Positions 46,616 through 51,849 of a DNA stretch of 57,061 nt are shown in pieces. The first letter of the stretch is position 1. Every line of letters starts with the position of its first letter. Location: NCBI GenBank assembly GCA_004210455.1, contig SEFA01000037.1, positions 1 to 57,061 of the forward strand, written 5' to 3'. The position numbers and the translations under genes were made by a program. Origin of the DNA: Rubrivivax sp. GTDB lineage: Bacteria; Pseudomonadota; Gammaproteobacteria; Burkholderiales; Burkholderiaceae_C. The notes below the pieces were generated by a model. It was not told the origin of the DNA. It saw only the letters and a program-made list of their open reading frames with translations, and searched no databases.

Positions 46616-46691
46616 TCCCCGATAGCTCAGTCGGTAGAGCGCCGGACTGTTAATCCGTAGGTCCCTGGTTCGAGCCCAGGTCGGGGAGCCA
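46616..46691 (+). tRNA. tRNA-Asn (GTT)
   Basis: A complete 76-nt cloverleaf including an encoded CCA. Acceptor TCCCCGA/TCGGGGA, D-arm GCTCAGTCGGTAGAGC, anticodon loop CTGTTAA with GTT, T-arm CCTGGTTCGAGCCCAGG and discriminator G. It is followed by a terminator and a second tRNA-Asn. Confidence 0.97.
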
Positions 46692-46794: not shown

Positions 46795-46870
46795 TCCTCG
46801 ATAGCTCAGTCGGTAGAGCGCCGGACTGTTAATCCGTAGGTCCCTGGTTCGAGCCCAGGTCGAGGAGCCA
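46795..46870 (+). tRNA. tRNA-Asn (GTT), second copy
   Basis: Identical to the first tRNA except for a compensatory base-pair change in the acceptor stem: TCCTCGA/TCGAGGA instead of TCCCCGA/TCGGGGA. The CCA end is encoded. Because a terminator precedes it, it probably has its own promoter, but I see no clear one. Confidence 0.97.
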
Positions 46871-46877
46871 AAATTGA

Positions 46878-46909
46878 AGCCCTACTCGCGAAAGCGGGTG
46901 GGGCTTTTT
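46878..46909 (+). terminator. Terminator after the second tRNA-Asn
   Basis: AGCCCTACTCGC pairs with GCGGGTGGGGCT (some G-T pairs) around GAAA, followed by a T run. A similar sequence including the preceding AAATTGAAGCCC recurs at 47610-47652. Confidence 0.8.
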
Positions 46910-47007
46910 CTTTTCACAGCTTTCAATGAGCCGGTGTCGCAAAGCGTTGTCCTTCTCCGTTGGCCGAGGCAAGCCCGCCATCGAACGGCTTGTGCTCCAA
47001 TGCATAC

Positions 47008-47493
47008 ATGGACATCGCAGCGATCACAGCGCTCATCGGAGGCGTGAAGACAGCCTCCGAGTTGGCAAAGGCAATCAAAGACAGCGGCTCCACTCTTGAG
47101 CAGGCCGAGGTTAAATTGAAGCTGGCCGACTTAATTTCGACCCTTGCTGATGTCCGGCTTGAAGCGGCTGGAGTTCAAGAGGAACTTCTGGCTGCTAGAG
47201 AGCAAATCCGCTCTCTTGAAAGCGCAGCGAAGCAACGAGCTTCGATAGTTTGGAGACAACCCTGCTACTGGCTGCCCAGAGACGGCGATGTGAGCATCGA
47301 GGAGCCGTATTGTCAGCCTTGCCACGACAACGATCAGCGCCTCTCTCGCCTGCATCACGATAGCAGGGGCGCTTTTACTTGCATGGTCTGCAAGACAATC
47401 TTCCGCACCGATGCCCGCATCGCGGCTGACAGTGAAGCATTTAAAGCTGCTAACGCTCGCCGCCGCGCGGCGCGCGCCGGCAGCATGTACTGA
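47008..47493 (+). CDS. Coiled-coil protein with zinc-ribbon-like C-terminus
   Basis: A 161-residue protein. The N-terminal part has a glycine-containing hydrophobic helix (AAITALIGGVKTASELAKAI). A coiled coil follows (about residues 28-72). The C-terminal part has cysteines in QPCYW, CQPCHD and CMVCKTIF, compatible with a zinc ribbon. No named family, but similar small proteins are frequent on mobile DNA. GC content is lower than in the core genes. Confidence 0.75.
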   Translation: MDIAAITALIGGVKTASELAKAIKDSGSTLEQAEVKLKLADLISTLADVRLEAAGVQEELLAAREQIRSLESAAKQRASIVWRQPCYWLPRDGDVSIEEPYCQPCHDNDQRLSRLHHDSRGAFTCMVCKTIFRTDARIAADSEAFKAANARRRAARAGSMY

Positions 47494-47946
47494 TCTCGAA
47501 GCCCTAGAGGCAAGATGGTCTCGAGTTCACCCCGGTAAGGCTTATCACGCCTATCAGGCACAACCTGAACGAGGCCGACCATCCATGTAGCTGAGGGAAG
47601 TTCATAGCCCCAAATTGAAGCCCCATCCGCAAAAGCCGGTGGGGCTCTTTTCTATGCCACGTTGGCAGCACATCGGCCACGATGCAGAGGACTGCTCCAC
47701 TTCTTGGCCATAGCCACCTCCTGCCCGACGGAACGACAAATGGCAGATCGGCTGAGGCACCGAGCCGTGCGTGCGCGCCTTCTCGCCCACCTACAGGCAA
47801 TGGCTGCATCGCGGAGTGCCGCGATCGCGGCCAAGTGCTGCCCCCACTGCCGCCAACTCTAAATATCACGTAAGCTCATGTTTCAACTCGGTCGATTTGC
47901 AGGTCGACACTATCGAGTTAAGCATACTTCCAGGGAGAGCCACGCA
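47494..47946. other. Gene-free stretch with a duplicated tRNA-flank element
   Basis: It contains CCCAAATTGAAGCCCC and a terminator-like hairpin (about 47624-47652) that copy the flank of the second tRNA-Asn. The remaining 290 bases have no convincing gene on either strand; short frames there look like chance. AGGGAG at 47932 belongs to the next gene. Confidence 0.6.
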
Positions 47947-48816
47947 ATGGCAGGCGCGCAACGAAGCAAAAGAAGACCAGCGGCAAAGACCAATGGTCAG
48001 CAGAGCCCCTCGGTTACTACCGTAAACTCTTTTGAGGAGTTTCTAACCGAATTAAACTCTATAAATTATGTCTCGAATAAATTCTGGTATCGAGGCGTCG
48101 GCAAATCAGTTCACTCCCTAACCCCATCGATCTTTCGGCACAAAAGTGCAAAATCCCAATCAGACTATCAGAGTCTTGAACTAAATCTCAATGAAACATT
48201 TGAGATGCGGAGTTTGCCGTATGCAGAATCACGGGAATGGGCGAAGGACGAGTGGGAACGCCTCTTCTTCATGCAGCACTATCGCGTGCCAACGCGACTA
48301 TTAGATTGGTCCGGCAGCCCGCTAGTTTCTATGCATTTTGCCATTGCATCCGTAGAGCTAGACAACACCGGGAAGCCTACGAGTGACGCAGCAATCTGGG
48401 TTTTGGATCCAATTCCTTGGAACAATGCTGCATATGCGGGGACCAATTTCCCCGGCGGCGTTTTATCTGCCAAAGATAGCTGGTTAAAAAGGTATAGCCC
48501 GTCAGAGGTCTACACGCAAAACAGCCAACTTCCTCCAGTAGCTATGCGCGGCGTTCATAACAGCGCGAGAATCGTCGCACAGCAAGGATTCTTTACCGTG
48601 TTTGGCCCCCAAGCCGAAGCGATGGAAACCACGTTTGCAAAAGTAGCAAATGGAAAACCAGTCTTTCCTCAAAGCTGCCTGCGAAAATTCGTAATTCCTA
48701 AGGCAAAAATATTGTCGCTGCGCAACGAACTTTTCTCCTTGGGTGTGTCCGAGTCCACGATATATCCAGATCTTGAGGGTTTGGCAGCTGAACTCAAGAG
48801 AACTTTTGGATTCTAG
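47947..48816 (+). CDS. FRG-domain protein
   Basis: A 289-residue soluble protein (start chosen at ATG 47947 because AGGGAG lies 9 nt before it; ATG 47878 is the alternative). The FRG signature is FWYRGVGKSVHSLTPSIFRH, followed by MQHYRVPTRLLDWSGSPLVSMHFAIAS and a C-terminal region with ARIVAQQGFFTVFG and KILSLRNELFSLGVSESTIYPDLEGLA. FRG proteins often occur in defence islands and are thought to be nucleotide- or nucleic-acid-acting enzymes, without a fixed activity. DNA is AT-rich compared with the rest of the window. 2 bp before the DUF262 gene, so an operon. Confidence 0.9.
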   Translation: MAGAQRSKRRPAAKTNGQQSPSVTTVNSFEEFLTELNSINYVSNKFWYRGVGKSVHSLTPSIFRHKSAKSQSDYQSLELNLNETFEMRSLPYAESREWAKDEWERLFFMQHYRVPTRLLDWSGSPLVSMHFAIASVELDNTGKPTSDAAIWVLDPIPWNNAAYAGTNFPGGVLSAKDSWLKRYSPSEVYTQNSQLPPVAMRGVHNSARIVAQQGFFTVFGPQAEAMETTFAKVANGKPVFPQSCLRKFVIPKAKILSLRNELFSLGVSESTIYPDLEGLAAELKRTFGF

Positions 48817-48818
48817 CC

Positions 48819-49883
48819 ATGTCTGAACATAATCTCTTCAAAATTCACCGCCTCGATCAGAAGACACTTGTTTGGTGGCGATCCAGGAAAAGTCGGATCG
48901 ACATGAAGCCGTCATATCAGCGGAAAGGGCGACGCTGGTCAAAGAGCGACAAACAGTATCTTGTGGACTCGATATTGAACGGATTCGATGTTCCAAAATT
49001 CTATATGGCTGACTTTGTGCTCGGCCCATCGAAACTAAACGAGCATGAGAGCTCCTACGCGGTCATCGATGGAAAGCAGCGACTCGAAGCCATTTTCGAG
49101 TTCTTCGATGATGAATTTCCTCTCTCCCCGTCCTTCGTCCTACTGTCAGATCGAACGCTACCACTTGCCGGCAAAAAGTATTCGGAACTCAAACAATATT
49201 TCCCAGATGTAGCCGAGGAATTTGATAATTTCAGTCCAGACGTTGTTGGCGTCATTAGCGACCAGGTCAAATATATCGAGGAACTGTTTGTTCGCTTGAA
49301 TAGAGGAAAGCCATTGAGCGGCGCCGAGCTACGCAACGCGTTCTCAACAAGAACTTCCGAAATCATCAGAAAAATTGGCAATCACCTCTTCCTAACCCAA
49401 TGTGTGCGATTTAACACTGGAAAAGGGCAAGATCTCAATTTGGCTGCAAAGATACTTATGTTCCAAGTTTTTGGTATTCAGGAAACCAAAAAATCGAGCT
49501 TGGACAAATTTGTGGCAAGTGTAGACACCTCGAAGGAAATAGAAGCAGCCGTTCATGTCGTGTTTGAGACATTAGAACTTATGTCGGAAACATTCCAGTT
49601 CAAGGATACGTTACTCGCATCTGAAGGTCCAATTCCGGTTTATTACTTACTCACTAGAAATGCACAAGAAGCAGAAATCCCTTTCGTTCGGGATTTTCTT
49701 GAGGAGTTTCAGGAGTCCATGAAGGCGGCGACGGCGCCAAGAGGGAAGTTGCAATTAATCAGCGCTCAGGATTGGACCAAGTACAAGGCGGCGAGTCGCT
49801 CCGTTAATGACAAAGCAAGCCATGAACTTAGATATTCCATTCTTCGAAAAGGATTCGATACTTGGATGAAGAATAGAGTCTAA
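48819..49883 (+). CDS. DUF262 (GmrS/ParB-like N-terminal) protein
   Basis: A 354-residue protein. IDMKPSYQRKGRRWSKSDKQYLVDSILNGFDVPKFYMADF, the nucleotide-site motif AVIDGKQRLEAIFEFFDDEFPLS and LFVRLNRGKPLSGAELRNAFS define DUF262, the NTP-binding domain of GmrSD, BrxU and SspE restriction enzymes. The DUF1524 HNH nuclease domain that usually completes GmrSD is absent; the C-terminal 150 residues are helical and unassigned. Overlap-close spacing with the FRG gene suggests that the two proteins act together. AT-rich. Confidence 0.9.
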   Translation: MSEHNLFKIHRLDQKTLVWWRSRKSRIDMKPSYQRKGRRWSKSDKQYLVDSILNGFDVPKFYMADFVLGPSKLNEHESSYAVIDGKQRLEAIFEFFDDEFPLSPSFVLLSDRTLPLAGKKYSELKQYFPDVAEEFDNFSPDVVGVISDQVKYIEELFVRLNRGKPLSGAELRNAFSTRTSEIIRKIGNHLFLTQCVRFNTGKGQDLNLAAKILMFQVFGIQETKKSSLDKFVASVDTSKEIEAAVHVVFETLELMSETFQFKDTLLASEGPIPVYYLLTRNAQEAEIPFVRDFLEEFQESMKAATAPRGKLQLISAQDWTKYKAASRSVNDKASHELRYSILRKGFDTWMKNRV

Positions 49884-50035
49884 TGAGCTCTGTAGCTGAC
49901 GATTTTTTTCGATCAGCCTCATTCCTAGCGAACTCGCATTCAAATTAATAATCCGCTGTTTTGGAAGACGAGGGGCACAGGTTGTAAAGCGCAACGCGTG
50001 CCTCCATGTCCGCTTGCCCACGAAAGCTCTAGAAC

Positions 50036-50299
50036 ATGCTAACAATAATTGAACGCCCATCATTCTCGCGACTACGGGCCCTCGATTACACGATGCGAGC
50101 AGAGGGAAATTTAATCCTCTCCGACTTTGGTGGCCGCCCGGGTTTTGAAACTGTAACATTTCTCGCTGAGTTCTCCGGGGCCGACGCGGGGGTCCTAGTG
50201 CTCTCTCTGCGGCAGGAGATGGTTGAGGCATATAAGCTCACGTCGTTCGAGAAAAGAGAGCTACTGGTATCGGCTCGAAACTCTTTAGCCATGGCATGA
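50036..50299 (+). CDS. Small protein with weak RelE/HigB-toxin resemblance
   Basis: An 87-residue protein. The N-terminal TIIERPSFSR and the C-terminal LTSFEKRELLVSARNSLAM recall the ends of RelE/HigB2-type toxins, but the catalytic core is not convincing. The stop overlaps the start of a 46-codon frame (ATGA). It may be a degraded toxin gene on the island edge. Confidence 0.4.
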   Translation: MLTIIERPSFSRLRALDYTMRAEGNLILSDFGGRPGFETVTFLAEFSGADAGVLVLSLRQEMVEAYKLTSFEKRELLVSARNSLAMA

Positions 50300-50436
50300 C
50301 CTACTTGCTCAACGCGGGATGGGCGGAAGTGTCGTGTGAGCGGTTGGGAGGATCGGAGCGTTTTTGGGCACGCATATTCGAGAGATATCCAATTAGTCGA
50401 GCTTTCGGCGACAAGTTTGACTTGCGGTTGAGCTAG
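50296..50436 (+). CDS. Small 46-residue ORF overlapping the preceding gene
   Basis: Starts at ATG 50296 inside the stop of the previous gene and ends at TAG 50434-50436. The protein is mixed and aromatic (GGSERFWARIFERYPISRAFGDKFDLRLS), unlike random translation. No family recognised. It could be a partner, or the tail of a protein separated by a frameshift. Confidence 0.4.
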   Translation: MTYLLNAGWAEVSCERLGGSERFWARIFERYPISRAFGDKFDLRLS

Positions 50437-50514
50437 CGTCATCGCTGCGCATTGGGAAAGACGTTGTCAACTTCGACGAACGCCCAAACGTTTCGTCATG
50501 CTATAGAGGACAAC

Positions 50515-51129
50515 ATGACAAAGCTCAATTCAATCTTCTTTGCGGTTTTGCTTTCGGCCTGCGCGGCAACGTCTCAAGCCCAAGTCTGGAAATGCACCAC
50601 CGACGGCAAGACCCATTACTCAGACCAGCCGTGCGCGGCGAAGGGCGAGCAGATGAGGCCGCAATCGCTGCAGAGCAATGTCATTGACACGTCTGCGGAC
50701 CGAGCGGCTGCGGAGCGTGCTAAGGCGGCTGAGCAGCAGCAGCAAGCCAACGGAATGCCGTCCTCTGCGGAGGCAGCGCCGTCCAACTATTGCCCCTCCG
50801 ACCGCGACATCACCGCGATGGAGACCAAGGTCAGCTCCATCTCCCTGAGCCCTGACGCCAAGCGTTTCGTCCAGGACGAGATCCGCCGCGCGCGCCAATG
50901 CCAGAAGGGCCAGGGTAGCTACTCCGCCTCGGACTGGAACGTGAGCAAGCAAGCCGTCGACGCGCAGAGCAGCCTGACTGGCGGCGCCGATGCCCGCCGT
51001 CGCGCCGAAGCGATGCACAGTGCAGCCAACGTGAGTGAAGGCGACCGCATCGCGCGCCAGCGCGAAGCAGAAGAGCGCAACGCCAAGCGTGGCGGTTTGA
51101 ACTACCAAGCCCCACTGCGCGACCGCTGA
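50515..51129 (+). CDS. DUF4124-domain exported protein
   Basis: A 204-residue protein with signal peptide (LNSIFFAVLLSACAATSQA). It starts its mature part QVWKCTTDGKTHYSDQPCAAKGEQM, the DUF4124 pattern of two conserved cysteines around YSDQPC. The rest is alanine/glutamine-rich and helical, with SSISLSPDAKRFVQDEIRRARQCQ and a charged tail. Periplasmic, function unknown; common in Burkholderiales. GC returns to core level here. Confidence 0.85.
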   Translation: MTKLNSIFFAVLLSACAATSQAQVWKCTTDGKTHYSDQPCAAKGEQMRPQSLQSNVIDTSADRAAAERAKAAEQQQQANGMPSSAEAAPSNYCPSDRDITAMETKVSSISLSPDAKRFVQDEIRRARQCQKGQGSYSASDWNVSKQAVDAQSSLTGGADARRRAEAMHSAANVSEGDRIARQREAEERNAKRGGLNYQAPLRDR

Positions 51130-51144
51130 CGGCAATCAGCGCTC

Positions 51145-51849
51145 ATGTCGCTGTTCCCTCGCCTCGTCCTCGCGTTCTTCGCCATCCTCTTCGCGGCGAT
51201 GCTGGCGCTTTGGGCAAGCGGACCCGAGCGCCATTCGCTGTTCGAGTGGCCACCGGCGGTCTTCTGCCTGGTGATTGCGCTGATGTGCTTCGTCAAGGGC
51301 CGCGTCTTCCACTTCTTCGGTGGGTTGATCGCATCGAGTGTGCTGCTCGGAGTCCTCGCCGGAGTGATCAGCACCTTGAAGGACGCTGAGCCCCTTCCTA
51401 CCAGCGCGATCTCGATCCTTGGCGCCCTGGGGATCTGCGGCGTTTACGGCTGGGTCTCATTGAAGTACCTGCTCGCGACTCGATTCGGCTTCGTCGCCCC
51501 ACCGAAACCCAAGTCCGAGCGACTCTCTGTCGAATTCGATCAAGTCCACGTCCGGGTCGTCGAGGCACAGGACCCGGCCGCTGATTGGAATCAGCAGTTC
51601 GCCTGGGACGACGTCATCCGGGTGTGCTTCGTCAACGGCGGTCTCGACGATTCCGATTACCTGTTCTTCACCTTGCGTGGACAGGAGAAGCCGCGAGTCG
51701 TTCCGACCGAAGCCCGAGGGGGCCCCGAGTTGCTCGGCGCAGTGGTCGATCGCGGCCTGTTCCCTCAAGACGTCTGGCGCAAGGCCATCGCCGAGACAGG
51801 CGGCCGGACCCATTGCTGGCCACCGCACGAAGAAGCCGCCACGCACTGA
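51145..51849 (+). CDS. Membrane protein with cytoplasmic tail
   Basis: A 234-residue protein with about four N-terminal hydrophobic helices (residues 5-25, 37-50, 57-75, 88-111). A soluble C-terminal domain follows with DPAADWNQQFAWDDVIRVCFVNGGLDDSDYLFFTLRGQ, a beta-rich pattern resembling PH-like domains. No named family. It begins 15 bp after the DUF4124 gene and may be cotranscribed. Confidence 0.75.
   Translation: MSLFPRLVLAFFAILFAAMLALWASGPERHSLFEWPPAVFCLVIALMCFVKGRVFHFFGGLIASSVLLGVLAGVISTLKDAEPLPTSAISILGALGICGVYGWVSLKYLLATRFGFVAPPKPKSERLSVEFDQVHVRVVEAQDPAADWNQQFAWDDVIRVCFVNGGLDDSDYLFFTLRGQEKPRVVPTEARGGPELLGAVVDRGLFPQDVWRKAIAETGGRTHCWPPHEEAATH

Follow-up and report, generated by a model that had tools for sequence, protein, structure and literature searches.

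A conserved FRG-DUF262 gene pair at a tRNA-Asn hotspot in Rubrivivax and its probable role in virus defence

The 57,061-nucleotide stretch of DNA analysed here (contig SEFA01000037.1 of the Rubrivivax sp. assembly GCA_004210455.1; hereafter the window) carries two adjoining genes, one for an FRG-domain protein and one for a DUF262 protein. The two genes form a conserved unit that recurs across bacterial genomes and phage contigs, and together they are probably an undescribed virus-defence system.

The gene pair in the window

47947..48816, + strand: FRG-domain protein of 289 amino acids (Pfam FRG, PADLOC PDC-S15, AlphaFold2 model); proposed effector with an ADP-ribosyltransferase fold
48819..49883, + strand: DUF262 (GmrSD_N) protein of 354 amino acids (Pfam, PADLOC NsnA, AlphaFold2 model); proposed nucleoside triphosphate (NTP)-dependent sensor

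The FRG gene starts at the ATG at 47947, with AGGGAGAG upstream, and ends with the TAG at 48816; an upstream in-frame ATG at 47878 would instead give a protein of 312 amino acids. The DUF262 gene runs on the same strand from the ATG at 48819 to its stop at 49883. Both frames are open and conserved in other genomes, and comparison with the pair of Acidovorax sp. Leaf160 gave nonsynonymous divergences of 0.25 (FRG) and 0.29 (DUF262), with synonymous divergence saturated and without a finite value. The window's genome has one match to each of the two Pfam families, both at this locus. A promoter scan returned five promoter-like sites, compared with 2.7 (sd 2.0) in shuffled sequence, and none immediately 5′ of the FRG gene.

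An earlier note on this DNA had placed the two genes 2 bp apart, on an AT-rich island just downstream of two tRNA-Asn genes. The coordinates and the Pfam matches confirm the 2-bp gap, and ARAGORN recovers both tRNA genes, the second ending 1,077 bp before the pair. The compositional claim holds as well, with one correction: the pair has a GC content of 0.465, compared with a mean of 0.684 (sd 0.027, minimum 0.616) in 196 overlapping 1,937-bp stretches of the window outside 46.6-51 kb, but the AT-richer region extends from about 46.9 to 50.5 kb and is thus broader than the two genes.

Pairing across genomes and phage contigs

An FRG gene lies directly 5′ of every distinct DUF262 gene of the clade that has upstream sequence available (22 of 22), which comprises 21 distinct complete pairs and one further genome with an assembly gap, G841 (G and L numbers denote genomes and loci; the pairs of L083 and L084 are identical). 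No adjacent FRG gene was found at any of 67 weaker DUF262 loci, namely the 25 from a phylum search, 27 from a class search and 15 from phage contigs that were returned as loci, with flanks that at the genome loci do not exceed about 1.5 kb.

At the level of the phylum, 45 of 398 genomes had a DUF262 match to the window protein, five of them at E < 1e-45, and all five (the window's genome, G204, which is Acidovorax sp. Leaf160, G645, G448 and G737) have FRG directly 5′; the next match stood at 1.8e-16, and neither phmmer nor iterated profiles detected an FRG at the 25 weaker loci that the search returned. Within the order, FRG matches occurred in 29 of 399 genomes, the three best of which (the window's, G204 and G250) were paired; the 27 further loci that were returned were all unpaired. 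A seven-member DUF262 profile matched 26 of 369 genomes of the class; besides the window's genome only G841 was paired, and the 27 other loci returned were unpaired, including G806, G942 and G977 at 156-183 bits. We considered G841 as a frameshifted member and rejected this, since what splits its DUF262 gene is a string of Ns in the assembled sequence. Both genes are also present on a Hymenobacter plasmid (Bacteroidota), at 38-39% identity. On phage contigs, 17 of 32 DUF262 loci were strong; 16 of these were paired, the seventeenth (L076) begins at a contig edge, and the 15 weak loci were unpaired. The 75 FRG loci on phage contigs divide into 12 that are paired, two cut by a contig edge just 3′ of FRG, one with a DUF262 gene 2.3 kb away and 60 without an adjacent DUF262 gene. 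Complete paired DUF262 proteins scored at least 303 bits and unpaired ones at most 183.

The spacing of the genes is nearly constant, with a 4- or 1-bp overlap or a 1-2-bp gap in all pairs except L079 (16 bp). The FRG and DUF262 distance matrices are strongly correlated over the 21 pairs (Mantel r 0.933, a value reached by none of 5000 permutations), and the two proteins therefore co-diverge. FRG-DUF262 is thus a discrete, conserved two-gene unit, and a chance neighbourhood is ruled out by the 21 distinct complete pairs. Rarity of the adjacency in other genomes, which the earlier note had named as evidence against its reading, was not observed within this DUF262 clade. Most FRG and most DUF262 proteins are nevertheless unpaired, and pairing is thus a trait of a single clade in each family rather than of FRG and DUF262 at large.

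Two loci weigh against a clean pairing rule; they are the two best-scoring among the unpaired DUF262 settings that were viewed more widely. In G806 (L245:7048-14037) the best unpaired DUF262 protein (418 amino acids, 183 bits) has an FRG gene about 4.9 kb away with other open reading frames (ORFs) between, and on phage contig L114 (1997-7104) a DUF262 gene (154 bits) and an FRG gene are non-adjacent, 2.3 kb apart. A looser FRG-DUF262 association may therefore exist beyond the clade, and L114 could represent a more extended relative of the module. Separately, the 413-amino-acid DUF262 protein of G977 (L247:9562-14867) adjoins a 264-amino-acid ORF that resembles 3′-phosphoadenosine 5′-phosphosulfate reductase/DndC by eye, and a 1084-amino-acid ORF with a P-loop-like motif is also present; this may be another DUF262 system.

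Predicted proteins and related systems

The FRG protein matches Pfam FRG (PF08867) at E 4e-21, its 76.2 bits lying well above the curated cut-off of 25, and so belongs to that family; its best PADLOC match is PDC-S15 (3.5e-49), as are all 14 PADLOC families matched. Its AlphaFold2 model (mean predicted local distance difference test score, pLDDT, 86.5) has ADP-ribosyltransferases as best structural matches at low scores, and the predicted fold is thus that of the ADP-ribosyltransferase superfamily, which fits the suggestion of the earlier note that FRG may be the effector. R49 and Q212 are invariant in the pair alignment, and R49, as estimated from how the aligned ranges are offset, would correspond to residue 7 of the cholera and heat-labile toxin (LT) A chains, the catalytic Arg of these toxins. 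The FRG protein had no match in a viral structure library at E 0.001, and PDB sequence searches with the FRG and DUF262 proteins returned no match for either.

The DUF262 protein carries the GmrSD_N/DUF262 domain (E 6.7e-16, 59.4 bits against a cut-off of 33.2) and neither DUF1524 nor any further Pfam domain at E <= 0.1. Pfam likewise found no DUF1524 in the neighbouring ORFs at 47008-47490, 50036-50296, 50452-51126 and 51145-51846, and the earlier claim that this nuclease is missing is therefore borne out. The best PADLOC match is NsnA of Menshen (2.3e-27). The AlphaFold2 model (pLDDT 87.4) has BrxU, SspE, ParB and DndI as top structural matches, with weak scores, and the protein is accordingly modelled as a GmrS/SspE/ParB-type sensor that lacks DUF1524. 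In the paired DUF262 proteins P-x-Y-Q and an Arg are invariant, in motifs that SspE and DndI use for sensing and hydrolysis. A DG(K/R)QR signature is present in 21 of 21 pairs, a count that is partly selected because the phage-contig search pattern itself contained DG[KR]QR.

The two proteins have PADLOC matches from different systems, and the pair can be compared with each known relative in turn. With GmrSD and BrxU it shares the DUF262 domain, the D-G-x-Q-R motif and a structural match to residues 1-426 of the 580-residue BrxU chain; unlike them it has K or R as third motif residue, lacks a DUF1524 nuclease, and would rely on FRG, a protein of its own, as effector. SspE and DndI, which are DUF262-DUF1524 proteins that sense phosphorothioate, resemble it in the DUF262 fold, the invariant P-x-Y-Q and Arg, and, for two clades, the linkage to an enzyme that modifies DNA; however, the pair lacks DUF1524, and the linked enzyme, where there is one, is a C5-cytosine methyltransferase rather than Dnd or Ssp. 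Menshen consists of an NsnA-like DUF262 protein, the NsnB ATPase and NsnC. NsnA is the top PADLOC match of the pair's DUF262 protein, but no AAA ATPase was found at the pair locus (four window ORFs scanned with PADLOC), and the FRG protein does not match NsnB, a model that is matched by an AAA ATPase. Membership in Menshen or GmrSD was rejected on the absence of these defining parts (the ATPase and DUF1524, respectively). PD-T4-2 was rejected as well: PD-T4-2_A was matched at 7.9e-13, but its second protein was not found, and the FRG matches were all PDC-S15. PDC-S15, which is presumably a single-gene candidate, includes the FRG protein, which in the pair comes with a fixed DUF262 partner. An Frg clade of the ADP-ribosyltransferase superfamily is described by Iyer et al. 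2022 (PMC9503650) as a candidate effector against viruses, perhaps with NADase activity; the FRG domain is shared with the pair, and DUF262 does not occur in the main text of that paper.

The literature searches likewise contained no publication joining FRG and DUF262 among the matches listed. The pair would be a new form of DUF262-based defence, and the view of the earlier note that no characterised system consists of this pair alone stands as far as the literature searched is concerned; it has to be qualified in that FRG is already modelled as PDC-S15 and that DUF262 is nearest to NsnA.

The predicted folds also bear on whether the pair is a plain toxin-antitoxin module, with FRG as toxin and DUF262 as antitoxin, that retains a plasmid, prophage or island. 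A toxin-like fold, two small coupled genes and residence on mobile elements would suit this explanation; the second gene, however, encodes a 354-amino-acid protein with invariant nucleotide-site motifs, unlike the usual antitoxins, and the pair is recurrently linked to restriction-modification genes. We regard a plain toxin-antitoxin function as improbable, although addiction and defence are not mutually exclusive.

Genomic context and proposed function

The pair lies in the variable part of a tRNA-Asn integration hotspot, with the following features.

46616..46691, + strand: tRNA-Asn (GTT), copy 1 (ARAGORN); edge of the hotspot
46795..46870, + strand: tRNA-Asn (GTT), copy 2 (ARAGORN), with its own terminator at 46876-46907 (terminator scan)
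46912..50548, no strand assigned: variable cargo region of the hotspot, containing the pair (blastn against relatives)
47008..47493, + strand: 161-amino-acid ORF of phage protein family phrog_1244 (PHROGs E 5e-9); cargo between the tRNA genes and the pair
47609..47650, + strand: degenerate copy of the tRNA-Asn terminator, 83% identical to 46868-46909; possible eroded attachment site

All 15 same-genus relatives searched share the flank, which consists of both tRNA-Asn genes and the end of a gene that by eye resembles a TonB receptor (one of the stretches compared, L236, is just 698 bp). In six of them a DUF4124 gene follows, between about 200 bp (G1122) and 3.3 kb beyond the terminator. Partial tRNA 3′ copies that are fuller than the window's occur downstream in L233 (one), L235 (two) and L237 (two). 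With blastn, both flanks of the window match these hotspots, and the cargo fragments do not, apart from the terminator copy (about 47606-47656); no FRG or DUF262 DNA was detected in the hotspots of the 15 relatives, although a diverged copy could escape this search, and the cargo region had no blastn match in plasmids and phages. The 87-amino-acid cargo ORF at 50036-50299 has no family match above the cut-off.

Family libraries were used to scan ten chosen ORFs from 7 of the 15 relatives. The G1124 hotspot (L238:2293-6945) encodes HamA (1.9e-82) and a HamB-like helicase of 690 amino acids against an 841-position model (Hachiman), beside a DUF6119 protein (1.6e-129), and the G1117 hotspot (L227:2944-4864), an interval of 50% GC, encodes an AAA ATPase (PDC-M31A, 4.4e-70) and a DUF4276-like protein (PDC-M31B, 3.2e-13) that form a candidate system. 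The site is not purely devoted to defence, because its cargo also includes Tae4-family and LysM proteins, besides methyltransferase-domain and MCRA-family proteins; a 393-amino-acid ORF at G1118 (L230:3535-4713) had no Pfam, PADLOC or PHROG match.

The earlier note had recorded neither the restriction-modification genes that adjoin the pair in some lineages (C5-cytosine methyltransferase, Vsr and Eco29kI) nor its carriage by prophages. Of the 26 pair loci, three of the 26 having one gene of the pair only, at a contig end, 9 have a C5-cytosine methyltransferase within 4 kb. The controls, 15 weak DUF262 loci and 61 unpaired or non-adjacent FRG loci, have one at 1 of 76 (p 1.1e-5). The profile used was built from eight pair-locus methyltransferases and is hence biased toward refinding them; without the duplicate L084 the count is 8 of 25 (p 4e-5). 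This profile replaced motif searches, of which a stricter one had missed L071, L073, L086 and L034, and another L072. The methyltransferase-bearing pairs make up two whole clades (8 of 8), L071/L072/L073/L086 and L034/L043(L242)/L080/L083. The genes form a tight methyltransferase-FRG-DUF262 operon in L071, L073 and L086, and L073 additionally has Vsr 3′ of DUF262; L242 has the order Vsr-methyltransferase-Eco29kI-FRG-DUF262; L080 and L072 have Vsr, methyltransferase and Eco29kI on the opposite strand, after or before the pair; and in L034 the methyltransferase and a Vsr match share the strand of the pair. At L034:7880-8767 a NOV_C-domain protein (PDC-S36, 6.6e-103) adjoins the G250 pair on the opposite strand. 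Around the other 13 of 21 pairs no C5-methyltransferase was found in the flank available, which for seven falls short of 4 kb on one side or the other; L079 carries a methylase of N6/N4 type in its place.

These cassettes raise the question of whether the pair serves as the restriction component of a system guided by DNA modification, in which DUF262 would read the C5-cytosine mark of the linked methyltransferase, the pair would attack unmarked cells or DNA, and lineages of the window's type would have lost or replaced the methyltransferase. The enrichment, the tight operons and the two complete clades speak for it, and SspE and DndI play such a role for phosphorothioate. On the other hand, the 13 pairs with no methyltransferase found include the window's, for which no C5-methyltransferase match turned up either near the pair (4 kb) or anywhere else in the genome, and in L242, L080 and L072 the methyltransferase is already partnered by the Eco29kI endonuclease. 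We consider this explanation doubtful. Genome-wide, methyltransferases away from the pair were strong matches in G645 and G737 and weak ones in G204. The cassette enzyme was the only match in G250 and G448, G841 had no match, and 7 of 15 same-genus relatives had one; because presence varies in this way among carriers, there is no simple rule linking host 5-methylcytosine (m5C) to the pair. A simple m5C-triggered Type IV enzyme was rejected on the distant methyltransferases of G645, G737 and, weakly, G204 and the adjacent ones of two clades.

The pair is also carried by prophages. The Leaf160 and L073 pairs lie near terminase and head-scaffold genes, presumably P2-like; L085 has the order repressor-FRG-DUF262-integrase, L081 has a repressor upstream, and an integrase adjoins the pairs of L083 and L244. 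Among 83 neighbour ORFs, hand-picked mostly from 118 that were themselves cut from 161 (antisense-looking ORFs and parts of the pair were dropped, and one Vsr ORF was added), we counted nine DNA methyltransferase matches (two from L083), six integrase and five repressor matches. A prophage function such as lysogeny control or superinfection exclusion, benefiting the carrier phage only and stranded on an island here, would account for these neighbours; other copies, however, join restriction-modification cassettes, and L241 and L243 have no phage-like neighbours by eye among the part of their genes scanned. We judge it very unlikely.

Taken together, the location and partners of the pair support a role in defence, and the predicted folds support a division of labour between sensor and effector. 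The earlier suggestion of an undescribed defence module is partly supported, by a conserved unit, a mobile tRNA island and defence-associated surroundings, with the existing PDC-S15 and NsnA models as qualification. We think it reasonably likely that the pair is a mobile two-gene antiphage module in which the DUF262 sensor activates the FRG effector and aborts infection. DUF262, as an NTP-dependent sensor of ParB/GmrS fold, would read invading DNA or its modification state and, once activated, would hydrolyse nucleotide, as SspE and BrxU do, thereby releasing or switching on FRG, with which it would be in physical contact. The separate FRG protein would take the place of the nuclease half and would consume nicotinamide adenine dinucleotide (NAD+) or ADP-ribosylate a target, so that the infected cell stops and the infection is aborted. 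A narrower version is tentative: a DUF262 nucleoside triphosphatase that reads DNA modification may control an NAD+-consuming, ADP-ribosyltransferase-type effector, without DNA cleavage, and dock onto m5C cassettes in some lineages.

DUF262 and FRG are recurrent and poorly understood parts of bacterial immunity, and a fixed pair gives each of them a partner. It also allows one to ask whether a DNA-modification reader of the GmrS/SspE type triggers an NAD+-consuming enzyme instead of a nuclease. That the pair has repeatedly come to adjoin cassettes of m5C methyltransferase, Vsr and Eco29kI points to a further line of protection against phages able to overcome restriction, and the modification-sensing reading, if true, would join Type IV/SspE-like recognition to immunity by NAD+ depletion.
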